The notes beneath the pieces were generated by a model. The model was not told where the DNA came from, did not search any database, and saw only the letters and a program-made list of their open reading frames with translations. DNA of 64,000 bases from Pisolithus tinctorius (lineage: Eukaryota; Basidiomycota; Agaricomycetes; Boletales; Pisolithaceae). This document shows positions 1 through 16,944 of the stretch, piece by piece (the stretch's first letter is position 1; the number at the start of each line of letters is the position of its first letter). Position numbers and translations under genes: made by a program. The stretch is from NCBI GenBank assembly GCA_024663395.1, contig JANFAH010000082.1, forward strand, positions 153,390 to 217,389, written 5' to 3'.

Positions 1-590
1 ATTGGATAGATTAGTGTCCTAGAAGTGGGGTTGGCTGACCCAGCTATGAGATGAATTAGTGACCTAGAAGTGGGGTCAGCCAACACAGCTATGGGATAGA
101 TTAGTGACCTGGAAGTGGGGTTGGCCAACACAGCTATGGGATGAATTAGTGACCTAGAAGTGGGGTCAGCCAACACAGCTATGGATAGATTAGTGACCTG
201 GAAGTGGGGTTGGCCAACACAGCTATGGGATGAATTAGTGACCTGGAAGTGGGGTCAGCCAACACAGATGGGATAGATTAGTGACCTGGAAGTGGGGTTG
301 GCCAACACAGCTATGGGATGAATTAGTGACCTGGAAGTGGTGTCAGCTGACACAGCTATGGGATAGGTTAGTGACCTGGAAGTGGGGTTGGCCAAACCAG
401 CTATGGGATAGATTAGTGACCTGGAAGTGGGGCCAGCTGACATGGCTGGGGGAAGGGATGATGTCCTGGCAGTGGGGTCAGCTGATGTGGCTGGGGGGAA
501 TGAACCATGACCTGGAGTTGTGGTTGGGCAGACACTTTGCAAGAAAGACCAATATCTTGCTAGTGGGTTAGTGGGGCTGGCCAATCTTAT
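1..590. repeat. Left satellite, about 44-45 bp unit, CpG-decayed
   Basis: Tandem repeats of about 44-45 bp run from the window edge. Each carries a core close to cctggaagtgg followed by ggttggccaacac and gctatgggat. Copies alternate between ggttggcc and ggtcagcc versions and degenerate after about 430. The core matches the reverse complement of the satellite at 14,211-14,680, except that tcggccga there is ttggccaa here, the change expected from CpG deamination. Open frames through the array are repeat translations, not proteins. The array probably continues left of the window. Confidence 0.9.
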
Positions 591-883
591 TACTCAGTAC
601 ACTACTTCCTTGGTAGTTAGCTGGCTGAACCCAGATGGTTGTGGAAAAATCCTATATCCTATCCTTATCCTGTGGTATTGAAGTTAACTCTACCAATCTG
701 GCGATTGTATTGGAATTAACATTGGGCAAATTTACTCAGTTGTGTATCAGTACTTAAGGAGGAATTGTCCTGCAGGAAATTACTTTTTTTTCTGAACATT
801 CAATGTCATATGAAATTTGAAAACACAAAGCAGCTATTTTTGATTGTAGTACATGCATATCATATGTATCAAGGTAGGGTATT

Positions 884-2471
884 TTACAAAGATTCCAACA
901 GCCAGGATGATGTTTGCCCCTTTCCCTGTGTCAGTTTGGTAGCCCCTTTGGACATGCAGATAGTATAGGTTTGGGGAGGCTGAGATGTGCCTTGTGTGTC
1001 CTTCCCACAGCCAGGATTCTTGCACTCATAGGAATAAGTCTGCCCTGAACAACCAGCTTCCCACTTCTGAATGCTATAACACTGAGGGCACTGGGCAGGC
1101 AATTGTTGTCCCCAAGGCCTGATGAACTTGTCAGTCCAGACAAATTTCTCCACCACTACCTTCTCCTGCCACAACATCAGGATGATGTTGGAGTGCCTAC
1201 CCAACATACCACAGTCATTCAGGGCATACCTGACTGCACTTTGGACATGGAAGCCTTGAACAAGGGCGGAGTCAAGGACACTCATGAGGAAGGGAATGGT
1301 GGTGACTAGTTGAAGTCTCTCAGCATCAAAAAGCAACATGGACCTTGGCTTGAAACTGATATGGTGTCAGCCATAACCACCAACATTGAAAGAAAACCTA
1401 CTGTTGCACAGCTGCCTTCAGTCCTTGGAAGCTCTGCTCCTTCCTTACAGTAGAACCACATACAAAGAAGATGAGGTCTCCACCCTTGACAATGTTGGAG
1501 AGGGGTAACAGAAGGCCTTGCAGAAACTGCAACTGGTCAGATGGGAGTGACAGTCAAACAATGGTGACTTACCTCAAAGACCTCTGTGGCTATTGGAACC
1601 TTATTCTCCATTCCAGAGAACAGATCCCCCCTGTCTTCATCAGTATGGGTAGTAAGGAAAATGACTACCTTAGCAAAGGTAGTCAGACTTGAAGCTAGCT
1701 TTGATGCTGCAGTGTCATAGGCAGCTCTGGACTCCTCGGTGGCAAAGTTGAAGGACAGTTGTGAGAAGTGGTAGGTGTCTTGTCTGAAATATCCCTGCAA
1801 CATGGTGTGAAGGATATGCACAGGGGCATGGCCAAGCTCTAGAGACTCAAGGTGGAGGTGGATAATGGCAGTAGAGTTACCAGCCACTTCAGAGGTGGTG
1901 GCATGCTCAAACCCCCCAATGACCACAAGAGGGTGTTTCAGGACTGGCTTGCCTGACAAGTAGAAGCCCTGTACTTGGAGTTAGAAGTGATTGGGGTAGC
2001 AATATGCACTTACAAAATAGGGCTGAGGACTTTCAAATCTTGTCATTTTCCAATGACAGGCAACACACCTGAAGTTCATCCAGAGTTTGAGTCAATGGAG
2101 TTAATTCATAAAAGGGAGGTTAACACACCTGAAGGTCACAGGAAGCTGGGTGACCTCTGCAAGGCAATCCTCAGGTACTACAACACACTTGTTACACACT
2201 ACCCTTCTGCATCCTGCCTGATCACAAGGCCACAATGTCCCTCCATCCCTGCACATCACACAGAACTGCATAGAATGTTAGAAAGATGGATGGAATATAA
2301 AAAGAGACTTGCCAAGTTCCTCATCCTTCTCTTCTTGGCAACAGGAGCCTTCCTAGCATGGGCCTTGCTTGACTTGGCAGCATGTTTTTCCCTAGCTTTC
2401 AGACCAGCAAGAGATACCCTGGGAGCTCTACCCCCAGTGGTCTTCTTAGCTGTCTGCTTGGTCTTCACCAT
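884..2471 (-). CDS. Histone H3-tail mimic with PHD-like finger, possible caspase-like domain and zinc ribbon
   Basis: Six exons join without a stop into 449 codons: 2313-2471, 2129-2265, 2014-2068, 1573-1968, 1402-1532 and 884-1355. Intron 1 is GC-AG, the rest GT-AG, and all phases agree. The product starts MVKTKQTAKKTTGGRAP, nearly the H3 N-terminus: after Met removal K4, Q5, T6, A7, K9, G12, G13, A15, P16 and R17 match, with R2K, R8K, S10T and K14R. A Lys/Arg-rich stretch (to residue 53) follows. Next is a Cys cluster (C55, C58, C67, C72, C77, C80, C100, C103, with a DGG after the second Cys) resembling a PHD finger. An alpha/beta region carries H225 (motif TTHTD) and C274 (motif FFVCGS). 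A C-terminal zinc ribbon uses C382, C385, C404 and C409. I recall similar uncharacterised proteins in mushroom genomes but know no assigned function. The frame is intact inside a mobile region, which suggests it is expressed. Domain names beyond the H3 match are inference. Confidence 0.85.
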
Positions 2472-2760
2472 CTGAGTGTATTATGCCAATATTAGTGAGT
2501 GGCAGCAACATATGACACAGAAGGGAACAGTAGCATACCTTATTATCTTTACAAGACACAAAAGGTGTAGGGGACAAGCAGTAAGATAACAATAAATGCA
2601 TTTAGTTTAGTACATATATCATGCAGCAGGGATAGATATCTACATATTTATGGAAAAGACAAGCCAATGTATGCAACTACACAACACTGGGCACTGGATA
2701 AGCAGACCAAAGAGGGTGATATGTAAGTATCATCTGGACACCATGAAGTAGAAGTCCAAC
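2472..2760 (-). other. Spliced 5' leader of the H3-mimic gene (inferred)
   Basis: Read on the minus strand, an AG (cactcag) lies directly before the ATG at 2471, and a donor-like aag/gtatgc lies near 2,540. An intron would therefore end at the start codon, so translation begins on the first base of an exon. No coding sequence is seen here. This fits a leader made of several small non-coding exons, continuing into the array at 2,757-4,050. Confidence 0.45.
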
Positions 2761-4050
2761 AACATACCTTATTGGATGAGACACAGCAAGGGAGATGCAG
2801 TGTGGCAGGAGGGAGATATGAATTGATAGCCTACTAGTGTGTTTTGTGAGTGGTACAGGGACACCAGGAACTGGGACAACATACCTTTTGTAGGATGAGA
2901 CACAGCAAGGGGTGTTCTGTGAGTGGTAGAGGGATGCCACGACCTGGGACGACATACCTTTTTTTTTTTGATAAGGCACGGCGAGGGGGTGTTCTGTGAG
3001 TTGTAGAGGGACGCCGCGAAGCTGGGACGACATACCTTTTTTTTTGGATGAGCACGGCGAGGGGGTGTTCTGTGAGTGGTAGAGGGACGCCGCGACCTGG
3101 GACGACTTACCTTTTGTTTTTTTGATAAGGCACGGCGAGGGGGTGTTCTGTGAGTTGTAGAGGGACGCCGCGAAGCTGGGACAACACACCTTTTTTTTTG
3201 GATGAGCACGGCGAAGGGGTGTTCTGTGGGTGTTTTGTGAGTTGTAGAGGGACGCTGCGCGAGCTGGGACGACGTACCTTTTTTTTGGATGAGGCACGGC
3301 GAGGGGGTGTTCTGTGAGTTGTAGAGGGATGCCGCGAAGCTGGGACGACATACCTTTTTTTTTTTTGGATGAGCACGGCGAGGGGGTGTTCTGTGAGTGG
3401 TAGAGGGACGCCGCGACCTGGGACGACTTACCTTTTGTTTTTTGATAAGGCACGGCGAGGGGGTGTTCTGTGAGTTGTAGAGGGACGCCGCGAAGCTGGG
3501 ACGACATACCTTTTTTTTTGGATGAGCACGGCGAGGGGGTGTTCTGTGAGTGGTAGAGGGACGCCGCGACCTGGGACGACTTACCTTTTGTTTTTTTGAT
3601 AAGGCACGGCGAGGGGGTGTTCTGTGAGTTGTAGAGGGACGCTGCAAAGTTGGGACGACATACCTTTTTTTTGGATAAGCACGGCAAGGGGGTGTTTTTT
3701 GTGAGTGGTAGAGGGACGCCGGGAAGTAGGACGACATACCTGTTTTTTGGATGAGACCCGGCGAGAGGAGGGGGGTGTTTTGTGAGTTGTAGAGGGACGC
3801 TGCGAGCTACTTACCTTCTTTTTGAATGAACGGGCTTTGTGAGTAGTATGGGACACTGAACAACGCGCAATAGACTGAGAAGAATGGCAGCGTCCTGGTG
3901 TGTGATGTGAGTGTTGAAGCCATGAGAGGTTCGACAACATACCTTTTTTGTTTTTTTTTTTTGAAGGGAGACGCGGCACGACGTACCTATTTTGTGTTTA
4001 GAGAGGGAGAGGCGCGAGAGATCCAGAGGACGACGACGTACCAAAAATTT
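2757..4050 (-). repeat. Tandem array of about 76-89 bp units, each resembling a mini-intron plus mini-exon
   Basis: About a dozen well-kept units lie at 2,870-3,760, with decayed or partial units to either side. Read on the minus strand, each unit has a donor (gtatgtcgtccc or gtaagtcgtccc), a CG-rich middle, a branch-like ctctacaactcacag or ctctaccactcacag, and about 34-37 nt of aacaccccctcgccgtg followed by an A-run and G just before the next donor. Taken literally, each is an intron of about 41 nt and an exon of about 35 nt, on the strand and upstream side of the H3-mimic gene. Some edge copies have lost the acceptor (cacag to cacaa). The CpGs of the core have become TpG/CpA in copies left of about 2,950. 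Long frames through the array are repeat artefacts. Confidence 0.85.
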
Positions 4051-4980
4051 CGCTGAGACGCAGCGGGGCCAGAGAGTGGGATAACGCAACGACGGTCGGT
4101 GAGGGAGACACTGTGTGGCAAGAGGAGAGGAGCAAAAGACCGTGTCAATCCGGATACTCGGATGCACAGATCTCGATTTTGGACAGGTCACGTAGTGAGA
4201 CCTGTGATAATCTTGGACACAACCTTAATTGTGACATGAACAACGTCACGGCTGTCATGATTATCACACGTGTCTACCCGTACTTCGGATGCGTCTCTGG
4301 AACATTACGTAGGACTATATACGGAGTGGTCCGTCGCCGCTAGGCCGATTTCCGGTTTCAATAAGTGACTACATGTATTAAATGATCCGGTAGTGCTACT
4401 ACAATACATTTTCTGTGAAATCCCAAGGGTAAGCCACCACTACCGCTCAGGCCAACGGCACGAGGGAGTGCTTGCTCGGCTCGACAATGCAATTACGAGA
4501 ATGTCAAGCGAACATTTAGTATTTAGTATATAGAAGCCGAATCCGGTGACAGTGGAGTCACGTGACATCGCTATTCGCGATGTATAGTACGACACCGCGG
4601 TAACTGACTCAGAGGAAGTTGCCGGCACTCACGGCAACTGAACACGCGCCGAGGCCGAGAACGTGACATTGACGGCGACCTCGCTAGTTGGACTGTGGCC
4701 AAACAACGGTACATAAGACTCAAGTATATAAATCCCCCCCAGTCAGTGGCATATTTTTTCCCTTACTGCGTTTCTCTGCGATGTGACGCTTCCCCTCCGT
4801 CGTCCTCCCTCTCCCTCCATCTCCCTCTCCCTTTCCCCCTCTCTCTTTCCCGTTTTCTGTGCTACGTCATCTTCGTTTTTATCTCAGCCCGTCGTCTCGG
4901 CTGTCATAAGGTAAGTGGCACCTCTGATCCCAGAATTTTCACATTACTTGATTACCGTTACTTTGCAGCATCCTTGGCGC
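2950..4980. promoter_or_regulatory. CpG-rich island between divergent transposon genes, with promoter motifs
   Basis: CpG is frequent here but scarce in the flanks (600-2,800 and 4,990-13,900). On the plus strand a TATA motif (tatataaat, 4,725) is followed by a long CT-rich tract (about 4,780-4,860) and then a perfect donor, ataag/gtaagt, at 4,911. This is the usual layout of a fungal core promoter and non-coding first exon. The TET/JBP and KDZ genes lie downstream on plus; the H3-mimic gene lies leftward on minus. The island may be a shared divergent control region. No coding sequence was recognised in it. Confidence 0.5.
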
Positions 4981-4989
4981 CTCACTATT

Positions 4990-6263
4990 GACTGTAGTCT
5001 GCAGCTACAGGATGTAGGGAGGGGCTACCCTTGACCTTAGATTGTGCTTGGCCAGCGCAATTTTTGGTTGTTGGGTAATATGTTGGGTCTGGGGGAATAG
5101 TCTGTGCCTACATTGTAGGCCAGCTCATGGGATCTGGGGGCTAGTCTGTACCTACATTGTAGGTCAGCTTATGACGTTTTATTTGGTCTGTACCCACCTG
5201 TGTGGGTCAGCCTATGACGTTTTTTTGTGTGGTATGTGTTGGTATATATTGGTAGTAGCTAGTTGGTCAGGCTTTGGTGTAGTGAGTATTCAACTTCTGT
5301 ATAATCTATGTTGTACTGACATAAACTTTCTAGAGCTGTTTGTCTTTGACTCCTGGTGAATAAATAGTGCACCTCAGGTATGTGAACTTTGCAAAGTTGT
5401 GTTGATGCTAATGTGTTTTTAGGATCTTTGTTATCAGCTTTTGTGCGCTTTTTTGGGAACTTGGTTGAATTGAGGACGGTTTTTATTGGCCCAACTGTAC
5501 TTCTGGAGGAGGGCCCCCTCTGGAATGCAGGCAAGCCTTGGTTTCTTATGAAACCATTATACCTTTGTAGTTGAAATTGTAACTGTAGTTGAATTTATGT
5601 ATGACCTTGTAAATGTCACTGCTTTGATTGGATTTGAATGCTGTGTGGGAATCTATGCTTCTTTTTTTGAATGAAGCATGTGCTAACCCTAACCCTAGCA
5701 TAAGACTTGGTGTATTTCTTCATGCAAGTCTGCTTCTAACCCTAACCTTAGCAAATGACTTGGTGTATTGTTTCATGTCAGTCTGCCTGGCTGGTGGATG
5801 GTGCTAGATTAGCACTGGTGTTCCATGGCTGATCTTCTTAAGCAAGGTTTCCCTTTGATGCTCAAGAGCTTGCCAATGGCATTACTAGCAACCCAACATC
5901 TTCCCTTCAAATGCTGTCTGGATGTGTTCCTAGCTGTTGGATGTTGCTAGATTGCTAGATTAGTATTGGTGTTCCATGGTTTCCCATGATGCTCAAGAGA
6001 TTGCTGGACTGGATTGACTTGGAGTTCAACTGCTGCTGAGTTTGATTGCACCATTCCAGGCCCCTGCTTACATGACTAGATGTTTCAAGAAACATGGTGT
6101 ATCTAGTAGACTAAGTTGGGTTTCTGGATTCTGGATCTTCCCCCAAGTCAAGCAAGGTCCCTTGTGGAGAATAACTTCCAACTTATGTACTGAGTGATTT
6201 TTAACTATTTTTCTCACGGTTGAAAAATTTTCCTTTGACTTTTCCAACACCCCCCACATCATC
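4990..6263. other. CpG-poor spacer with short repeats; no gene recognised
   Basis: Three imperfect repeats of about 60-65 bp lie at about 5,085-5,230; each pairs a phrase like tagtctgtacctacattgtagg with cagcttatg. A duplicated telomere-like block lies at 5,683-5,760. No protein family is recognisable on either strand. The stretch may be a leader intron for the genes downstream of the donor at 4,911. Confidence 0.6.
5683..5765. repeat. Interstitial telomere-like repeats within a tandem duplication
   Basis: ctaaccctaaccctag (from about 5,684) and ctaaccctaacctta (from about 5,736) are short runs of the TTAGGG complement. Each is followed by a similar 40-bp phrase (gcataagacttggtgtatt, then gcaaatgacttggtgtatt), so a unit of about 55 bp is duplicated. 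Confidence 0.75.
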
Positions 6264-7608
6264 ATGGATGATTCCCTGCATACAATGGTGGTTGGAATGC
6301 TGAAGGCTGCCTTTGGAACAGTCCCTATGATCTCTTCCAGCTCTATTTTCTCAAATCACCAGCTCAGGAAGCCAAGGTAAGCCATAAGCAGTGATGCTAC
6401 ACTTGCTATGTATTTAGTTGGATAATAGACTTCGATCCTTGGCTGAGTTAACCCAAGTCAGGGCAACATTGCAAGGGGAATCTGGTCTAACTTCAGATGC
6501 TATTACATCTTTGGAAGTTAGGCTGGCATCTGCAGTCATTACACATGCCATCCTCAATCCCTGTAGGTGATTTCCACAACAATTCCAAGTGATCCAAGTC
6601 TGACCCTTAATAGATGTGTGCATTGGGATGCAGACAGGTTTTCTGAACCATTGGTGCATGCCAAGGACAGGACCATCCATTTTGAAAACCCAAAAATTGG
6701 GTATATCAATGCTCCTGCCACAGTTCTGGATGTGCATGGCAGGGTGATAGTATGGTATCTGCCTGGTATTGTCCCAGATGCACGGATAGTGAGTGTTTTC
6801 ATTCTCTGACAACCCTTCACTACAGCTTTTATATCATAGGAACTTCTCAATTCCCTTCTCCTTTCCATAAAAGACAATCTTCAGACTGAGCCCAAGAACA
6901 AGCCAAAAGACAAAAGCAAGCTTAACAAACGATATGGCCATAAGCATCAGCCTGTTGACCAAGTCATGTATGGACATGGCAGGATTTCCATGTCTCCTGC
7001 CACATTCCAACAGGCTCATGAGGTTTGTCCAGGTGCTGTGATTTCCATGGTAGGGGCTGACAAATTTAAAGAGGTTGGTTGATACACTCTATCAAAGCAC
7101 ATCCCTCAAACAGAAAGCCAATAGGGAATGGCTGCTCAAGATTTCTTATGTGGAACACTTCTGGAGCAATATAGCAAAGGTCTCATTGCCAGATATGGCC
7201 AGGGCTGGTGATCAAGCAATGTTGGCCAAGGCTGGCAGGGTGGAGAATGAGATATCCCTGGATTGGCCATCGGTCTATACCAACATTGATATTATTGTCA
7301 ATCAGGAAACTCCCTCTCACCGAGATGTCACATCCACCCCAACCCTTCTGGATTCATTAGTGAGCCTGGGTTCTCACAATGCTAAATTCCTTATTCCAGA
7401 TCTGGGGGCCGAACTGGCTTATTCCCCAGGCACCATGATTTTCCTATCAGGAAAAATCCTTCAACATTCTGTGCCAAAGTGGGAGAAGGGAGAAAGAATT
7501 GCATTGGTGCATTATATGAAGGACAAAGTACATGACCGACTCAAGGTCACAAGACCAGCATGGACTACCCAAAAGGACATTCTTGGGTTGGCTGTCAGAT
7601 ACACTTAA
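6264..7608 (+). CDS. TET/JBP-family 2-oxoglutarate/Fe(II) dioxygenase carried by the transposon
   Basis: The family oxidises 5-methylcytosine or thymine in DNA. The C-terminal part (7,075-7,608) holds the catalytic signature: a SHRDV motif (H and D at 7,318-7,326), a cupin-like stretch with LAYSPGTMIFLSG, and a distal HSVPKWEKGERIALVHY (His at 7,465, 2OG-binding Arg following). Upstream exons inferred from phase are 6,264-6,374, about 6,420-6,568, about 6,618-6,789 and from about 6,836. They encode the longer N-terminal region usual in fungal members, including a stretch containing VIVWYLPGIVPDARI. Near 7,065-7,075 the frame shifts by one base; this may be a small intron I cannot place or a real frameshift. 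The gene is co-oriented with the KDZ transposase, as described for basidiomycete KDZ elements (Iyer and colleagues, 2014). CpG is scarce in it. Confidence 0.75.
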
Positions 7609-7751
7609 AACACATTTTAGTGGCAATTTTTGGGTACAAATATTTTAAATACATTTGATAACCTTGTTCTGGACTTGTGTGGTGTTGTTTTGGGGATGAA
7701 AATTTTCAATACAGCTGAAAACCTTGCTTTTGACTCTTCCTGTGCTCAATC

Positions 7752-10700
7752 ATGCGTCGTCGTAGAACCAAAGTCCTTGGCAAAAGCTCTGCAGGAGGTT
7801 TGTATAAATTTGAAGTACTAAAACCCGGAGAGGAAAGGACACCTACAAGGAGGTGGATGCTAGACACCTCTACCTCCCATCTCAGAGTCAACCTTCAACT
7901 CCAAGGACCCCCAGGACAATAGGCTCCCAAAATGTTGTCCCAGACTCCTTTGACATGCCTACCTTGGACTGGAATGATGAGGAAGATACCCCAAATACTA
8001 GGAGGGTTACCAAGGTGGGAAGTTTTGCCTGATACTGCATTGGCTAAATTATCCCCTAGAGTCAAAATGATTTCATCAGAGAATGGCTGCCTTGGAGAGC
8101 AGAATATCTCAAAGTCATTCTCGAGGGAGAGCAGCTGGCTAAGGGGGGGATATGTGAGCAGTGCTGTCAGGCAGAAGGAAGTATCAGATGCATGTCCTGC
8201 ATTGGTGTGCATGCCTGGTGTGGTCCTTGTGCTGTGAAAGTGCATCAAAATCTTCCATTCCACAAGGTACAAAGATGGAATGCTACTCATTACCAGGCTA
8301 CCTCTTTGATGGCACTTGGGTTCCTTTGGCACATTGGCCATGGGGGTCGTCCTTGCCCTCAAAACAGACAGAATCAGGATCCAGACTCAGAGGAGTTGGG
8401 CTATACTTCTGGGGAAGGGCCTCCCAATTACAGGTCAATGGCAGTCATATCCTGTAGCCTCCATGTTAACCTCTGGTAGCAGGAGATCCTTCAGATCAAA
8501 AATGACCATAGTGCACACAGAAGGAATTTTCACTCATGAGATTTCTTGGTGCAATTGCCCTGGGTCAGATCCAATGGACTGGCACCTTGATTTACTCAGG
8601 GAAAGACTCTTTCCAGCCAGTATAACAAAGCCCAAGACTGCTTTCACCTTTGATGTTCTTAATCACTTTCTCATTGATGCCCTGGAATGCAAGACTTCAG
8701 CTATGAGTTTCTATCAGAAGCTGAAGAGGTTCACCAACAATGCATTTCCTGACTGTATACCAGTTGAGTGCCATGCACTATTTGCTCTTAGGGGGTTCTA
8801 TTAATGCATTCATTTCCAATTAGGACAGGTACCGAGAGCTGATGAGGGTTTCCAGACTGTGGAGGGATTTGAAACATAGGAAATGGTTTGGCTTTGGTCA
8901 TGATAAAGAACAAGATCCTAGACAAGGAGAACTTGCACTCTTTTGTCCTGCCTGCCCACAACCAGGTATTAATTTACCTCCAGATTGGAAAACCCGATAT
9001 GACAGGTATGGAGTGATAATCTGTAGGGTTTTGATTTCTAACTCCCCTCCCCCCTTAGTGATACCATAATGAGGCAATATGTCATGGATGGCAACTTCAC
9101 TGCTCAGCATATGAAAATGAACAAGCCTGAGTTGGATGTGTCATTATCAGATGGAACTGGTTACATGGTTGCTGAAAAGCCCTACCAGGCCCATCTTGAG
9201 CAGTCTTTGGATAACAAGGAGGTGAGTTGTCCCAAGGTCATGGAGTTTAAATGACCCACTGTACTGGTAGAGATCCACCTGCAGCAATCACAGGGCAATC
9301 AATGCTGCTAATATTAACAAGTCCAATCTCCGGTCCACTGGGATTGGTGCCACAGCCTGTGCTCGGCATGGTTGCTTTGTTCCCCATTCTGTGGTGGACT
9401 TTCAGAAAGGGGAAAAGTGAGTGGACCTGATGGATGTACTGGAAGCCTTTGGAACTCATTTTGTGCTAGGTACATGAACACAGATTACTCCATCTGCAGT
9501 GCTCTTGATTATCATTCAGAAAGCATCACAAAGGCCCTTGTCATTTATGATGTTGGGTGCCAGTGGAGTATTAACTTCCAGAGTCGGGTAAAATCCAGCT
9601 GCTCTCTCCATCTCCCTCCCTCCCTGGAAATCATTCCTGCTGTGGGGAAGTTTCATCTTGCTGCCCACAAACTCTCTTGCTTTCCAAGATATAGCCTCAA
9701 CTTTATCAAGGGTGCTGGTCATCTGGATGGTGAAATTTTGGAGACATTGTGGGCTCCATTCAATAAGATCTCTCCCACTGCAAGGTCTATGACTCAGGCC
9801 CACAGACAAGAAGTGTATGATGACCATATGAGAGATTCTAACTGGAAAAAAATTGTCAACATGGGTGAGAGACCTTTTCTTCAAAGAGAAGTTAATTTAC
9901 CCTGTACATCTCAGTTCCTGCACTGTTGAAAAAATACAAGACCTCACACAAGTGCCTAGAAGAAATGAATCAGGCATATGAGCAGTTGACAGCTGTTCTA
10001 GACCCTGGCCAACTTGCCCAATGGGAGTCGGATGTTCTTGAGGCAGAAGCAAATCGAGGTGATTCCCTAGACATTTATTTGTTGAAAGGGGAAAAAGGTC
10101 AGTATGTTCCTAAGAAACCCTGGGCATGTCTGATGGCCTGTAGCCCCTACCATGGGTGAAGTGCAGTTAAAGCTCATGAAAAATCCACCTGTGTCCCCAG
10201 GGAGCCATGGTTCTGTGGCTTGGCTTGTGGAAGGAATTAGCATAGAGGATGCACAGTATGGTCTGTGGTTTCCAGAAGCAATAGGTTGCTAACCAGACCT
10301 GCAGGGACCAGCTAAGATCTGAGCTTAGACAGAGCCACATGTCTACCAGACAAGAAATCAAAGTCTCAGAGAAAAGAAAAAGACTTTCTGCCAGGATTGA
10401 CAAATTCCATGGCACCAGCCAGGCATTTCTCAAAGGTTTGGAGGTGGATGATGTCTTCATACCCCAGGATGATCCAGCATTCCTTGGGCAAGGTGAAGAA
10501 ATTGATGACAATGGAGAGTACTGGGAAGATGATGAGGATTGGGAGGCTACAGAAGAAGGAGAGGAGCTACCTGCTGAGCTCATGAGTATATGGATGCCCT
10601 CATCCATTGGAGCAACCAAACTGATGGAGCTTGGCCTTCATGACCTCCTCAAAGAAGAAATGGAACTCAGGATTGGGCAAGCTAATGATTGTCTAGACCA

Positions 10701-11347
10701 GCTCCGAACCAACCTTGGACACAAGGCAATGTTATACAGACAGAACTTCCGCAGTGCACAATCAACTAGGGAAGGTACAAGAACCAAGCAGGACATCCAA
10801 AAAGTGGTGGCTCGGATAAACAAGCAGGTCAGAAGTTATCAGAGGGCAAGGCAGGCCATTCTCCAGTTGGAACCCAATCAAGAGATTGGACAAAGATATC
10901 AGGCTATTCAGCCCCAGGACCTGGCAGTGAGTAAGGATGTTACAGAGGAGAACCGGTTTGGGCAGGGAACCAGCAAAATGGCATGGTTTTGGATGGATGG
11001 TGAACAGGGTCAACTGAATGCTGAGAAGGGGGGTTTAATGGAGGAGTGTAAGTGTTAATACTACTCAAAAAATCTCACCAATAAATTGTGGGGCAGTTTA
11101 CAGGATCAACTGGCTCAAAGCAAGGGCAAGAAGGGACAGGTGGAAAGAAGAATTGTCATTGGTGAGGCATGAGATGGTTTGGGCCATCTTATGGTTTGAG
11201 TTCCAGAAGGACATATGGGAGAAAAGGGCTCTACAATTGTTGGAACCAGGGAAAAAGGCTTATGCTCATAAGCAGATAGTGTTGTGGACTGACTTTTCCA
11301 AAAAGGCCCAATTGATGTTCCAAGGTAAACAAATGGATTGTATTTAG
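7752..11347 (+). mobile_element. KDZ (Kyakuja-Dileera-Zisupton) transposase gene with CxC2-type Cys cluster
   Basis: A multi-exon gene starts at ATG 7,752 with a basic MRRRRTK. A Cys-rich segment (about 8,140-8,360: CEQCC, CMSC, HAWCGPC, HKVQRW) is the CxC2-type domain usual in KDZ proteins. Then follow HEISWCNCPG, FCPACPQPGINLPPDW (about 8,937), ACARHGCFVP, and the RNase H-like core with IYDVGCQW (about 9,547) and GHLDGEILETLW (about 9,717). The Asp residues and the DGE fit the family's acidic catalytic residues. A helical, charged C-terminal part continues to 11,058. An intron (gtaagt at 11,048, acceptor near 11,097) leads to a last exon ending at 11,347. Segments join by plausible introns, but I did not verify that every exon is undamaged. 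The gene should drive mobilisation of the whole unit. Confidence 0.85.
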
Positions 11348-11578
11348 AACATGGGTATATGTGTATAGTTTTCCATTACCCTTGCTTTGCACTTGGTATC
11401 TGAATCAAAGTGAATAGCAAATACATCAAAACAATCATACCATAATGGTACCTTTCCTAAAAGAGTGATGGCCGAAAACTTCAACCTCCTGCCTAAATTG
11501 GGAAAGGCTGAAAAATTTTCACCTTGCTTCCAACCTCCATCATCTGTGCTGCTAATTATCCCCCTGATTTATTCTCTC

Positions 11579-13957
11579 ATGGCTGATTGGTCTGAAGTCT
11601 ACTCTGATCTGCTGTCCTCCTATGTGGAGCAGTACACAGATGCCCGAGGGAATCCTGACCTCAGGGCCCAGATCCTGGCTGATGTGAAATCCCAGATCCT
11701 TCAGCAAGCATCTTCAGGATCTGTGGAATTGCCCCAGAACTTGAGAGTGGTAGGGTATCTTTTTCATCAAGTTTCACATATCTCAAGTGTATTTAGGCCA
11801 TCAGAAGGGTGTTTTTGCCAGAACTAGACCCTGAAGACCAGGATGATGAGGAACACATCATTGAGAGCATCCTGGCTGCAACAGACAAGAGGAAGGAGCA
11901 GCCTGGGACTGGTGAGGATGAGGATGGCAGAGAGGAGAGGACCAGACCTACCAAGGCTGGAAATTACAGAAAACCCTTCACTGATTTTACTGCCTCCCAG
12001 CAGCTCTTCAAAGAGGACATGGATGCCTATGATAGGGAGAGGAGGGACACCAAGGACCCCAAGACCATAGGTCAGAGGACCAAAATCATCCAACAGTGGT
12101 GGGAGTCTCTTGCAGATGACAAGAAGGCTGAAGCAGGGAGGGCTGCTTCCAAGTGGAATAAGTTGGGAGCTCCAAAAGAAACTCATGAATTGTCAGTGCT
12201 GGTCTACTTCAAATGTCTTATACTAATCATGCAATAATTCAGGTACAGGAGAAAAAATTTTCCCAACATGGCCAGAGACTTTATTGAAACAGTCAGGAGG
12301 ACCATGGGGTCAAATATAGTGATGTTTCTGGCTCATGAGACTACTGATTCTCAGATCAAGATGGCAGTGTAGGTTCCCCTTTACCTTGTCTATCCAATGC
12401 TAATGAAGAAACCTAGCTTTGAAACACAACCCCCTGATGGGAAGAAGGCCTTCTCAGAGTCTTCAGAGCCCACCAAGGATTGGGTTCTAAAGGGAGAGCA
12501 AATGTTAACCAATTATCTTTTGACTGAAGCTGGTAAGTGATAAACATTGGTGATCAATGTAATATGTGTACCTAGGTTGATTCCATACTCAGCTGAGGAA
12601 GATTTGAATGATGAGAATCCAAAGGTGGAGATAGCCTTGGATGATGAAGGAAACCCAGAGGTACCAGCTTGGACTGGTCAGAAACTCAAGGTCCAGCAGA
12701 GTTTGGCAAGAATGGTCTTCCAGGCTGCCTATGGTATGTTCTTGATTGTCAAGTGCATCTACAGTTGTTGATGGAAGTTGGAAACATAGCAAAGTTTACA
12801 GGGAAGCCCAAGGCCAAGGTTCCCTGGGGCCTGCTTATCAAGTCCCATTTGGAGTATCTGAGTTCCGATTCCATCCCAGAAGGATTCATGATGAAAGATC
12901 CTTCAAAATGGACCAAGGCCGACATGTGGATGCTTTGGAATCATTGGAATTCCCAAGAGGAGGAGGATAAGGTGATTGTTTCATTCATCAAGTGCAAAAA
13001 GGAGGACGAGCCATTGGGAAGGCCCTGGAACAGGAAAACCCCATCCAAAAAGAGAGAGTGGATGAGCCCTGGGGAGGACAGTGAAGCTGGGGTGGAGGCC
13101 AAGCCCTCAGATTTAGGGGAAGAAATTGGTGGGGCTGGTATGACCCCTATAGCAACTTCATCAGGGGCCCAGGATATCCTTGACTCTGGGAGGGCCCCAT
13201 CTGAAGATACCCCTCATGAATCCAGCCCTGCTTGTCATGCCAATGGGGACAGGGTGAAATATTTAAAGTCCCTTTGCATCATGCCCAGGTACCAGGAACT
13301 TGTTGAGCTTGTAGATGGCTTGCCAGAGACAGTAAGTGATAAACTTTCTTCAAATACCAGGTTAACAAACATTTTGTACAGGAACCTGATGCTGGACCAG
13401 TCAACCTGCCTGTCTGGGCATCTTGGGCCTGGAGTGCCCAGTATTTGCCCCAGGAGATGCATGGCAATGGGGATTCCTTCTGGAAGGCACTGTATCAATT
13501 GCAAAGTGAAAAGTTTGCATCCACCCAAAAAGGTCTTACCATTGTACTGGGATTTGGTTTGTTGTGGAGGGAGTGCAAAAGAGCACAGGACATAGAATCA
13601 GATGACCCTGAAGCTGCTAATCTGGGCTTTTTGCTAGGCTCAGGTCTTGATATCCACAAGGGGGAAGATGTTATGGGTGCAGTGGGGCTGGTAGTTGCAA
13701 GACTGCAGCAGAATTCTGGTGGCTCAAGCAGAGGGATTGGTGCACAGGAAACAACTGGGGTCAGTGCAGGGGATTCCTGTCCCACCCAGGGGGGTGGCAT
13801 GAAGGAATCCCGGAATACAAGAAAGGATGTGAGGAAAAGAAAAAGGGGAGGCAGTGGGGATGTTGATCAGAAGATGGCAAAGGAGGGTGAAGAGGCAAGC
13901 AAGAAATCAACTAGAGCTCGTCAACCAACCAAGAGAGCTCTGGGTCTTGGTCTATAA
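11579..13957 (+). CDS. Transposon cargo protein with HMG-like segment
   Basis: The ATG at 11,579 (MADWSEVYSDLLSSYVEQY) starts a gene of about eight exons; introns at about 11,749-11,796, 12,237, 12,369-12,410, 12,533-12,573 and 12,734 preserve phase. Residues encoded at 11,940-12,180 (KPFTDFTASQQLFKEDMD, later WWESLADDKKAEAGRAASK) look like an HMG-box-type helical domain. Downstream are an acidic linker, a block with KVPWGLLIKSHLEYL, and a Lys/Arg-rich tail (KRKRGG, KKSTRAR) suited to nuclear localisation or DNA contact. I recall related uncharacterised proteins in many mushroom genomes. It lies about 230 bp after the KDZ gene on the same strand. A chromatin or DNA-binding role in the element is inference. 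Confidence 0.65.
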
Positions 13958-14210
13958 ATAAACTGTAGATGGTGTGAATCAAAAGGATCCCTATATATGG
14001 CTACCCATGCTCATTGCAAGTTTCAAACCCTGTGAGATCACTGACATCACCTGGAGGTGAAGAATGGCCATGGATTCAGGGGGTAAGGCCACCCCCCAGT
14101 GAGGTTGGCCAACACTGGTCTCAGGGGGTATGTCCATCTGGAAGTGTCATCAGAGTCAATACTTCTGGTAACATCTAAATTGACAAGCAATTGATTATGC
14201 CAAGGGAATT
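13958..14210. other. 3' flank with decayed satellite-like phrases
   Basis: No gene is seen. Phrases such as ccagtgaggttggccaacac (about 14,097) are CpG-decayed relatives of the neighbouring satellite core ccagtgaggtcggccgacac, so the array once reached further left. Confidence 0.6.
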
Positions 14211-14760
14211 TTCAGGGTTTGGCCAACCCTACTTCCAGGTGGTGAGGTCTGTGTCCATCCCCCAGTGAAATCGGCCGACACCACTTCCAGGGTGTGGTCC
14301 ATCGCCCAGTGAGGTCGGCCGACACCACTTCCAGGGTGTGGGTCCATCGCCCAGTGAGGTCGGCCGACACCACTTCCAGGGTGTGGGTCCATCCCAGTGA
14401 GGTCGGCCGACACCACTTCCAGGGTGTGGGTCCATCGTCCAGTGAGGTCGGCCGACACCACTTCCAGGGTGTGGATCCATCCCAGTGAGGTCGGCCGACA
14501 CCACTTCCAGGGTGTGGGTCCATCCAGTGAGGTCGGCCGACACCACTTCCAGGGTGTGGGTCCATCCAGTGAGGTCGGCCGACACCACTTCCAGGGTGTG
14601 GGTCCATCCAGTGAGGTCGGCCGACACCACTTCCAGGGTGTGGGTCCATCCCCCAGTGAGGCCGGCCGACCTCCCTCCAACATGTCGGCCTATCCACCAT
14701 CAGGGTCTATAGGCCGATGTCGGTTAGTCCCACTTTCAGGACCAAATGTGCATGTCGGAT
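14211..14760. repeat. Right satellite, 43-47 bp unit, CpG-intact and inverted relative to the left one
   Basis: About nine near-identical units (gaggtcggccgacaccac, then ttccagggtgtgg, then gtccatc and a variable cc/gcc/gtcc linker) lie at 14,265-14,660, with diverged copies to about 14,760. The reverse complement gives cctggaagtggtgtcggccgac, matching the left-satellite core at 1-590. Length variants arise in the linker. Frames through it (for example 14,195-14,700) are repeat translations. Confidence 0.9.
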
Positions 14761-14807
14761 GACCCACTTTCTGGATTACATGTGACTGAAGGGTCTGGGA
14801 GTACCAA

Positions 14808-15846
14808 TACACTGGCAAGTGTAAAAATTGTAGTATTTGAAAGTGGTGGATGCCGCGCTTGCAAAGAAGGCGATGTCCAAGAGGCGGGGTGAAGGGTGGT
14901 ACCATCGAATTGTACACTTGCATACGGGCGCTTGACCGACTCTCTGCCAGTACACATGCTGCTCCCTGTGTAGAAATATTAGTCGCATTAGTCGCTGGAG
15001 CTGTGGACTTAACGTACCTCGCTCGCAGGACCGTGATGGTGTCTATTGCAACTCCGCCATTCGAGGATACTACTCGCATACCACGGTTACTAGGAACACA
15101 TTCGATGATGAGCATGAGCCTTTCTCCTACCAATACATCAATAACGTAGCTTCATAAGCATAAGGAGTCATACAGAAGTCTTGTGGACTCACCACCCATA
15201 TCGACGTGGACAAGAAGAAATTCATGGTACCAGGACGATCGAGAAGGGATATAATAAGGTCACATGCAACGACTATTCCGGCTACTTGAGTTCTTGTCCT
15301 TGCGAAGCGTAAGAAATCTTGAACGCTGTATTGTCAAGAGTTCTCGTAGTCGTGGAGGAGGCTCAAAGAGTGGACCATGGCCACCTTCGCAGGACCCGGA
15401 TGAAGGACGAAAGTCGGTAGGGACAATTGAAAGCAGACAGGGCAGATCCCAGTATTGGTGGCGGTGGAGAGAACAGAGATGATTTATAGCCTCGTAGGAT
15501 CCCATGACAGTACCGGAACTGGACATTACTAACGTCCAGAAGTATTGTCGGGTCTCCTGGAAGGACACTTTGATATCGTATATCCGGATAACACTCCCGT
15601 GGCCCCACCCTCGACTCGTCCATATTCGTGCCACAGGAAATCAATAAGAGCAACCTCGAGGCATACTCGAGACATGCAGATTCCGTGGTGAATAGGGACC
15701 GGCGGTGACTTGGGAGTGTTCGAGCCACGCAGCACAGGGGATCCATGTTTCTGACGACCATCTGTGCCTTTTTGGGAGGTGAACACGGACACCGCGCCAA
15801 ATCATTAATATTGATTAATCTCAAAGAGCAAAGCCAATGCACCGCA
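14808..15846 (+). repeat. Left arm of 1-kb inverted duplication
   Basis: This arm is the reverse complement of 15,908-16,940. The inner end reads gcaccgca at 15,839-15,846 and pairs with tgcggtgc at 15,908. The outer end near ggcaagtgtaaaaattg (14,814) pairs with caatttttacacttgcc (16,914-16,930). The arms differ by scattered substitutions and small indels, for example cccc against ccc in the ccgtggcccc stretch, so the copies have diverged. Confidence 0.9.
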
Positions 15847-15907
15847 GTTGCTCTTATTGATTGCCCATGGCACGAATACGGACGGTGACATCCTTTCTGA
15901 GTTTTGT
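15847..15907. other. 61-bp unique spacer of the inverted duplication
   Basis: This is the only unpaired sequence between the two arms. It begins gttgctcttattgattgccc; the arms themselves contain a near-copy (gttgctcttattgatttccc, about 16,100), so the spacer is itself arm-derived material. Confidence 0.8.
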
Positions 15908-16940
15908 TGCGGTGCATTGGCTTTGCTCTTTGAGATTAATCAATATTAATGATTTGGCGCGGTGTCCGTGTTCACCTCCCAAAAAGGCACAGATGGTCGT
16001 CAGAAACATGGATCCCCTGTGCTGCGTGGCTCGAACACTCCCAAGTCACCGCCGGTCCCTATTCACCACGGAATCTGCATGTCTCGAGTATGCCTCGAGG
16101 TTGCTCTTATTGATTTCCCGTGGCACGAATATGGACGAGTCGAGGGTGGGCCACGGGAGTGTTATCCGGATATACGATATCAAAGTGTCCTTCCAGGAGA
16201 CCCGACAATACTTCTGGACGTTAGTAATGTCCAGTTCCGGTACTGTCATGGGATCCTACGAGGCTATAAATCATCTCTGTTCTCTCCGCCGCCACCAATA
16301 CTGGATCTGCCCTGTCTGCTTTCAATTGTCCCTACCGACTTTCGTCCTTCATCCGGGTCCTGCGAAGGTGGCCATGGTCCACTCTTTGAGCCTCCTCCAC
16401 GACTACGAGAACTCTCGACAATACAGCGTTCAAGATTTCTTACGCTTCGCAAGGACAAGAACTCAAGTAGCCGAATAGTCGTTGCATGTGACCTTATTAT
16501 ATCCCTTCTCGATCGTCCTGGTACCATGAATTTCTTCTTGTCCACGTCGATATGAGTGGTAAGTCCACTAGACTTCTGTATGACTTCCTTACGAAGCTAC
16601 GTTATTAATGTATTGGTAGGAGAAAGGCTCATGCTCATCGTCGAACGTGTTCCTAGTAACCATGGTATGCAAGTAGTATCCTCGAATGGTGGAGTTGCCA
16701 GAGATACTATCACAGTCCTGCGAGCGAGGTATGTTGTCCCCAGCTGCAGCGACTGACGCGTCTAATATTTCTACACAGGCAGCGGCATGTGTACTGGCAA
16801 AGCGCCGGTCAAGCGCCCATATGCAAGGGTACACTTCGATGGCACCACCCTTCACCCCGCCTCTTGGACATCGCCTTCTTTGCAAGCGCGGCATCCACCA
16901 CTTTCAAATACTACAATTTTTACACTTGCCAGTGTTATTG
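15908..16940 (-). repeat. Right arm of 1-kb inverted duplication
   Basis: This is the partner of 14,808-15,846. It holds an open frame at 15,962-16,555 and splice-like signals (gtatgttgtccc at about 16,729, ctacacag at about 16,779). The left arm's copy of that frame is broken by indels. I recognise no protein family in it. Confidence 0.9.
15962..16925 (+). CDS. Unrecognised protein-like frame in the right arm
   Basis: A 197-codon open frame (15,962-16,555) is followed by a second frame from 16,556 and a possible intron at about 16,729-16,779. The first segment includes DPTILLDVSNVQFRY and RSRFLTLRKDKNSSSR. I see no motif that assigns a function. The same sequence lies inverted in the left arm with frame-breaking indels. 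It could be the remains of a host gene copied by the duplication, or a chance frame. No ribosome or promoter evidence is visible. Confidence 0.25.
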
Positions 16941-16944
16941 ATAC

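Follow-up and report, generated by a model that had tools for sequence, protein, structure and literature searches.

Histone mimicry is known in viruses and in a few cellular proteins, and most of the mimics, such as those of influenza NS1 and of the automethylation site of G9a, are short motifs. We know of no earlier transposon-encoded histone mimic, and literature searches, judged by titles and abstract openings of the papers listed, returned no published description of an H3-tail mimic that is fungal or encoded by a transposon. KDZ/TET elements were reportedly first described by Iyer et al. in 2014. In the passages of Kojima 2025 (PMC12730594) examined here, TET/JBP-carrying transposons are already known in fungi and are said to carry no extra protein that would modify DNA further, and TET+ Harbinger families encode a third protein; a histone-like protein is not mentioned in these passages. 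We analyzed 64,000 nucleotides of Pisolithus tinctorius (contig JANFAH010000082.1, positions 153,390 to 217,389 of the forward strand; hereafter the window), which hold part of a KDZ transposon with a TET/JBP dioxygenase domain and, inside it, a gene whose predicted product begins like histone H3.

The element resembles the Kyakuja (KDZ) transposons of Agaricomycotina as presented in those passages of PMC12730594: both combine a KDZ transposase with TET/JBP, have 7-bp target-site duplications and 5′-CA..TG-3′ ends, and occur in Boletales. Kyakuja-1_LB and Kyakuja-2_LB are described there as having no terminal inverted repeats, in contrast to the window element, whose ends form imperfect ones (68 of 80 bases), and we therefore call it Kyakuja-like. 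It also differs from the published Kyakuja elements, as far as those passages describe them, in adding an H3-tail and finger protein and a second accessory gene. Judging from its sequence, the H3-tail gene is an accessory gene of this TET/JBP-carrying, Kyakuja-like KDZ DNA transposon, and we are close to certain that the H3-like tail is maintained in its family inside the transposon. Like NS1 and G9a, the product is a non-histone protein whose H3-like lysine motif would be open to reading or writing by chromatin enzymes. Unlike these mimics, it matches 17 residues in register, has a presumed free N-terminus, keeps both K4 and K9, is borne by a transposon, and belongs to a family of chains that also contain a PHD-like finger.

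The gene and its parts are as follows.

884–2471, minus strand: H3-tail gene, six exons, 447 amino acids as spliced here
2418–2468, minus strand: H3-like N-terminal tail, residues 2–18, equal to 1–17 in H3 numbering; the initiator Met is at 2471–2469
2313–2471, minus strand: exon 1, tail and basic linker, followed by an inferred GC-AG intron (2312–2266)
2129–2265, minus strand: exon 2, PHD/ADD-like zinc finger, running on into exon 3 to 2053
2014–2068, minus strand: exon 3, end of the finger with the last C-x2-C-H
1573–1968, minus strand: exon 4, core domain with conserved His225 (codon 1647–1645) and Gly-Asp
1402–1526, minus strand: exon 5, core domain with conserved Cys272 (codon 1460–1458)
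884–1355, minus strand: exon 6, end of the core, C-terminal Cys cluster (zinc-ribbon-like, by eye) and stop codon
2312–2266 (GC-AG), 2128–2069, 2013–1969, 1572–1527 and 1401–1356, minus strand: introns

The minus-strand frame from 2471 reads MVKTKQTAKKTTGGRAPRVSLAGLKAREKHAAKSSKAHARKAPVAKKRRMRNL, and the translation of exon 1 (2471–2313) opens with MVKTKQTAKKTTGGRAPRVSLAGLKAREK. The residues after the initiator Met, VKTKQTAKKTTGGRAPR, are in register with residues 1–17 of histone H3. They are identical to canonical H3 at 12 of the 17 positions and to the host's own H3 at 13, so that the near-copy of the H3 tail with K4 and K9 in register, reported in an earlier note on this DNA, is real. When the 53 residues of exon 1 were compared with the Protein Data Bank (PDB) by phmmer, 133 distinct sequences matched up to E 1 (best E 6.9e-5); the 60 listed were histone H3 peptides, H3 chains or H3-like chains (Cse4 and H3/CENP-A chimeras). 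The earlier note had also counted 449 codons in six exons. Six exons were retained, but the splicing used here gives 447 residues; 449 fits an exon-5 acceptor 6 nt upstream, as in annotated relatives in which LQ precedes FLQG. A histone proper was ruled out. A Pfam search with the 447-residue protein returned one sub-threshold DUF and no histone family, and among the PDB matches listed for the whole protein the similarity was confined to residues 1–45.

A tandem array lies 5′ of the ATG on the same strand (2839–3805, minus strand, 77-bp units, read as intron-like plus micro-exon-like). The array has 12.4 copies of 77 bp, and the stretch 2844–3942 resembles a series of splice cassettes. Eleven of its 13 intron-like stretches are 41–43 nt long and run from GTATGT, GTAAGT or GTACGT to CTCACAG, or to CTCACAA in 4 of the 13 (the acceptors were picked by pattern); 10 of the 12 stretches between them are 32–40 nt. 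Gene models of P. orientalis have N-termini with repeated peptides that match this array.

Relatives of the protein were found in Boletales. A protein search returned 77 (73 from Pisolithus, two Pisolithus-like, one from Suillus subluteus and one distant), and a profile search returned 102, including proteins of 22 Suillus species, Rhizopogon vesiculosus and Pisolithus, all three genera belonging to Boletales, and metagenome proteins. The protein searches rely on shared exact words, so that distant relatives are missed; the tail-region search scored 42 candidates. A lemur protein with histone domains from that search was set aside as an H3 match and not a relative. No relatives were found in viral contigs among 23 stretches. 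In genomes of the Genome Taxonomy Database (GTDB), 6 of 38 stretches matched, at residues 1–21 only, and these look like eukaryotic H3 in metagenome bins. The family set used below consists of 161 sequences, 160 database proteins and that of the window; these gene models and copies are related to one another and hence not independent.

By string match, 127 of the 161 sequences have the H3-like tail. Some of the 34 that do not are fragments or shortened models, and some have degenerate starts. Of 80 distinct tails, 78 have K4, 79 have K9, 78 have G12 and 73 have T6; 34 have S10 and 15 have K14. A sequence entered this count if it agreed with any of seven consensus strings of the family at no fewer than 11 of 18 positions; K4 is in all seven strings and K9 in six. 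We therefore used a second alignment that avoids this bias, with 47 of the 161 rows and 30 representatives of less than 80% identity, picked by their finger, His and Cys motifs and not by the tail; the conservation of finger, His and Cys columns is partly built into it, that of the tail is not. In the representatives, K9, T6 and G12 were each kept in 29 of 30 and K4 in 27 of 29, against 4 of 30 for K14. When lysine columns were ranked over the 430 columns with at least 20 residues, K9 and K4 were the best kept, the third reaching 17 of 21. As a rule, homologues do keep the H3-like start with K4 and K9 on which the earlier claim turned. Its statement that the main acetyl site is blocked was too strong: Lys14 is not maintained, but some relatives keep it.

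Between Pisolithus-type and Suillus-type representatives, mean identity was highest in the tail (0.58), followed by the finger (0.41), the C-terminal part (0.35), the core (0.26) and the linker (0.15). Within the Suillus-type representatives, it was 0.70 in the tail and 0.53 in the core. For the 17 tail codons, comparison of three subfamilies of this genome gave a proportion of silent differences (pS) of 0.77–0.83, which is saturated, and a proportion of replacement differences (pN) of 0.16–0.27; for exon 4, pS was 0.48–0.72 and pN 0.26–0.35. Because silent sites are saturated and replacements are fewer, it is the amino acid sequence of the tail that is kept rather than its DNA. The computed tail dN/dS of 0.00 is only a sign of this saturation. 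In three pairs inside the diverged subfamily, the tail had 0 silent differences and 0 or 1 replacement differences.

The tail directly follows Met, at residue 2 of the model, in 70 of the 127 sequences; a residue other than Met precedes it in 9. In the 118 tails preceded by Met, the next residue is A in 69, V in 36, T in 7 and P in 6. By the usual rule, all four residues are compatible with removal of the initiator Met. The earlier suggestion that Val at position 2 of the window protein allows removal of Met agrees with this, and the family is compatible with a predicted free N-terminus.

The P. tinctorius genome (92.5 Mb in 221 contigs) contains about 40 close copies of the window gene. A degenerate pattern of the start occurred 53 times in it, and the reversed control pattern 0 times; with the family-wide conservation, these counts ruled out chance resemblance. 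Four occurrences were at histone H3 genes, 40 in the window subfamily and 9 elsewhere. In the window subfamily, 39 of the 40 were identical over 30 bases and one had a single base different. Of the 9 others, five were read and all were relatives. Four of the 9 belong to a diverged subfamily with MARTKQTAKKVTGG, and all four read are relatives; four are of a third type, of which the one read (L042) has the tail, the finger and the His motif. L042 (G000:C3:4014500-4015720) represents a third lineage, with the start MARTKQTAKKSACGTATR, in which the GG turn is CG.

Start pattern and histone-fold matches placed the host's own H3 genes at four loci. The two that were read (L040 and L041) have ARTKQTARKTTGGKAPR, with Thr instead of Ser at position 10. 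Since both carry Thr10, the Thr of the window tail matches host H3; the earlier note had rightly seen Thr at this position, but it is no departure from the host. By eye, the coding sequence is split inside codon 13 in one of these genes and after codon 19 in the other, near the end of the similarity with the mimic. Capture of an H3 first exon as the origin of the tail is conceivable. A recent origin by capture of a host H3 sequence, or by gene conversion from one, was ruled out: the codon identity of the tail to the two host genes was not above the expectation from the gene's codon usage (P 0.26 and 0.31), so there is no sign of a recent copy.

Residues 55–104 form a Cys-rich finger. An alignment of 14 sequences selected for full fingers (11 of 30 finger segments of a wider set are cut) had ten invariant columns, eight of them Cys, with eight zinc ligands in PHD/ADD order. 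The profile built from these 14 matched structures of CHD4 (4.7e-8), SP140 (4.7e-7), PHF21A (4.4e-6), ATRX (9.9e-6) and AIRE (1.9e-5). Several of these fingers read the unmodified H3 N-terminus. The finger is thus like those of the PHD/ADD readers PHF21A/BHC80, AIRE PHD1, CHD4 and ATRX in the order of its eight Cys and in its profile matches (E 4.7e-8 to 1.9e-5). It differs from them in that Cys replaces the usual PHD His, in its match to the Pfam PHD model, which is only weak here, and in that an H3-like tail adjoins it in its own chain. The spacing of the first six Cys was found in 68 of 161 models, and a tail and a full finger occur in the same chain in 61 of 161 sequences, including the diverged P0137, P0078 and P0162. 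In the window, the junction at the GC-AG intron 1 is backed by diverged relatives whose finger follows the tail region directly, and this reading is favored because the finger exon is open in most of the listed genome copies. We infer a PHD-like finger of the H3-tail-reading type, which in the window depends on the inferred GC-AG intron.

Searches with the core (residues 105–360) matched no sequence in the PDB up to E 10 and returned no Pfam peptidase family. His225 with the following Gly-Asp, and Cys272, are kept in most sequences, and their motifs were present in 115 and 110 of the 161 models, respectively. Cys402 and Cys407, in the exon 6 cluster, were recorded in the column analysis of the 30 representatives.

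The ends of the transposon were set by comparing copies. The element is 15,660 bp long, from −862 to 14797 in window coordinates (contig C82, 152527–168186), ends in CA..TG, and in this copy has GGAGTAC on both flanks. Its imperfect terminal inverted repeats gave a local score of 204, and the highest score among 300 shuffles was 40. Both ends were read in nine copies, including that of the window, and eight of these have matching 7-bp flanks, one having unlike flanks; a tenth copy had no right end in the stretch read, and for an eleventh, of which only the left end was read, the flank is that of another copy. The copies on C12 and C75 have an identical left flank, and therefore some copies are probably allelic or on duplicated contigs. 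The element ends and target-site duplications bear out the earlier description of the gene as transposon-borne. The other features are as follows.

1–14797, no strand: part of the transposon inside the window; it starts left of the window at −862, and its right end is ...GGGTCTG
4–437, no strand: left subterminal 45-bp minisatellite; the similarity runs on left of the window
7054–7605, plus strand: frame with TET/JBP dioxygenase domain (PF12851, E 3.2e-9)
8310–8801, plus strand: open frame with the CxC2 domain of KDZ transposases (PF18803, E 5.3e-24)
9318–9926, plus strand: open frame with KDZ transposase domain (PF18758, E 1.9e-28)
11579–13957, plus strand: second accessory gene, for the 'MADWS' protein; no Pfam family found, Suillus homologues joined to the H3-tail protein
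14261–14670, no strand: right subterminal 42-bp minisatellite
14798–14804, no strand: right copy of the 7-bp target-site duplication GGAGTAC; the left copy is just beyond the left end

A TET/JBP match in divergent orientation lies within 15 kb of at least 23 of 41 H3-tail copies, and within 7 kb in at least 20; 26 of the roughly 150 TET matches listed were used, so these counts are lower bounds. The genome holds at least about 150 TET/JBP domain matches among the matches listed, apparently of several subfamilies, and many other KDZ matches. The KDZ matches listed from the genome-wide search were to other KDZ families, and the window's copy was not among them. Neither a TET nor a KDZ domain was found in 47 models picked from about 160 of the family, mostly the longer ones. 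In Suillus, eight gene models fuse the H3-tail protein with a MADWS homologue, and a ninth was added by its similarity to those eight; the MADWS protein is about 30% identical to the stretch joined to the H3-tail protein in these models. Therefore, the H3-tail and MADWS genes are neighbors across genera. In the P. orientalis models P0074 and P0076, whose contigs are listed with equal lengths, halves of the two genes are swapped, as an inversion between them would give. A palindrome at 14798–16944, 93.9% identical to its own reverse complement, abuts the right end of the transposon.

The presence on the element of an H3 tail copy in which K4 and K9 are kept suggests evasion or exploitation of host silencing marks. 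The product would consist of a mimic of the H3 N-terminus, a basic linker, a PHD-like finger and a core of unrecognized fold. Removal of the initiator Met would leave a free H3-like N-terminus, which could be methylated at K4 and K9 or bound by host K4/K9 writers and readers, and the tail might thereby occupy or re-route the host silencing machinery. The finger could dock the protein on real H3, or hold the protein's own tail. TET/JBP would act on 5-methylcytosine, and the element would then oppose both the DNA-methylation and the histone-methylation arms of silencing. We tentatively propose, with confidence a little short of even, that the product is a chromatin protein which presents an N-terminus like that of H3 to K4/K9 writers or readers and works against silencing beside TET/JBP. 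An anti-silencing role was taken as the most likely because the element carries TET/JBP. More doubtful is the bolder version in which the transposon makes a synthetic histone tail, with a free N-terminus, that host H3K4 and H3K9 methyltransferases would write and the protein's own finger would read, TET/JBP helping to block both silencing arms. The proposal would liken the gene to those of plant Vandal families which, in the passages of PMC12730594 examined, lie beside the transposase and act on the silencing of the element.

Several observations weigh against this proposal. Within the Pisolithus-type representatives, mean identity is nearly alike in tail (0.62) and core (0.58), and the core has no recognized relative in the PDB and Pfam searches. 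Position 2 of the window tail is Lys, and R8 is mostly Lys across the family. In 57 of 127 sequences, the annotated model places residues before the tail, yet Met directly precedes it in 48 of these 57. In Pfam, the finger region matched CK_II_beta in 12 of the 23 members searched (best E 4.6e-4) and PHD in 3 of the 23, weakly (best E 0.021). A tail is found without a full finger in 66 of 161 sequences, and no full finger is present in the 22 annotated models of the window's subfamily, being seen only when the GC-AG reading is applied to the 23rd sequence, that of the window. Finally, sequence alone would not separate anti-silencing from pro-silencing action.

The tail may instead be an internal ligand, bound by the PHD-like finger of the same or a neighboring molecule and resulting in auto-inhibition or head-to-tail chains. 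Such a state would open on meeting chromatin or on methylation of the tail, and host writers would be needless. This explanation, which we consider unlikely, would account for the 61 sequences with both tail and full finger, the diverged ones among them, and for L042, a third lineage whose DNA encodes both; the matches of the finger profile also include H3-tail readers. Readers of the unmodified H3 N-terminus, however, contact mainly residues 1–4, whereas K9 is the best-kept lysine, and the models of the 66 tail-bearing sequences without a full finger do not fit it. The reverse of our proposal, that the tail attracts silencing, is quite unlikely: a tail methylated at K9 would bring HP1-type readers to a transposase-TET complex or to the target chromatin, so that new copies would land or stay in heterochromatin with less harm to the host. 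In 78 of 80 tails, K9 is kept and residue 8 is K or R, a context used by H3K9 writers and HP1 readers, and many copies persist. The TET/JBP domain of the element, which is expected to counter DNA methylation, argues against attraction of silencing.

The core could also be a Cys-His peptidase of the caspase/CHAT type, with the tail as a built-in substrate or guide, clipping H3 tails or, when it is in the right state, its own tail. In hand-picked alignments, His225 (before Gly-Asp) and Cys272 (within V-C-G), which are 47 residues apart, are near-invariant. This invariance is built into the rows of the 30 representatives, which were picked by these very motifs, P0053 is without the His, and neither a structure nor a Pfam peptidase family matched the core; we consider a peptidase decidedly improbable. 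We give still less credence to an error in the gene model, by which the ATG at 2471 would be internal and the H3-like stretch never N-terminal. Several of the 57 models with residues before the tail gain them by splicing upstream micro-exons, but these added N-termini are unlike between species (by eye), Met stands before the tail in most of the 57, and the 70 other tails start at residue 2. Four codons ahead of the ATG in the window, moreover, there is an in-frame TAA, unless it is removed by splicing. That the start is a passive relic of a host H3 gene, or a nuclear-import signal taken from one, with no mimic function, is the explanation we credit least. Histone N-termini can serve nuclear import, and the intron after codon 19 of one host H3 gene lies near the end of the similarity. 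A relic would not explain why K4, T6, K9 and G12 are constrained while K14 and the linker are not, nor the saturated silent sites with fewer replacements, and codon identity to host H3 at the level of codon usage speaks against a recent copy.

If the bolder version is true, this would be the first transposon-encoded histone mimic that we know of, kept across the Suillus and Pisolithus lineages. A transposon with a maintained copy of the H3 N-terminus, from a family that has an H3-reader-like finger as well, would link histone mimicry with TET/JBP transposons. The family amounts to a natural mutational experiment, repeated many times, in which K4, T6, K9 and G12 were kept and S10 and K14 vary. 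It makes directly testable, by means of peptides, how selfish elements deal with histone methylation, and the natural tail variants could serve as probes for the H3K4 and H3K9 enzymes of basidiomycetes.

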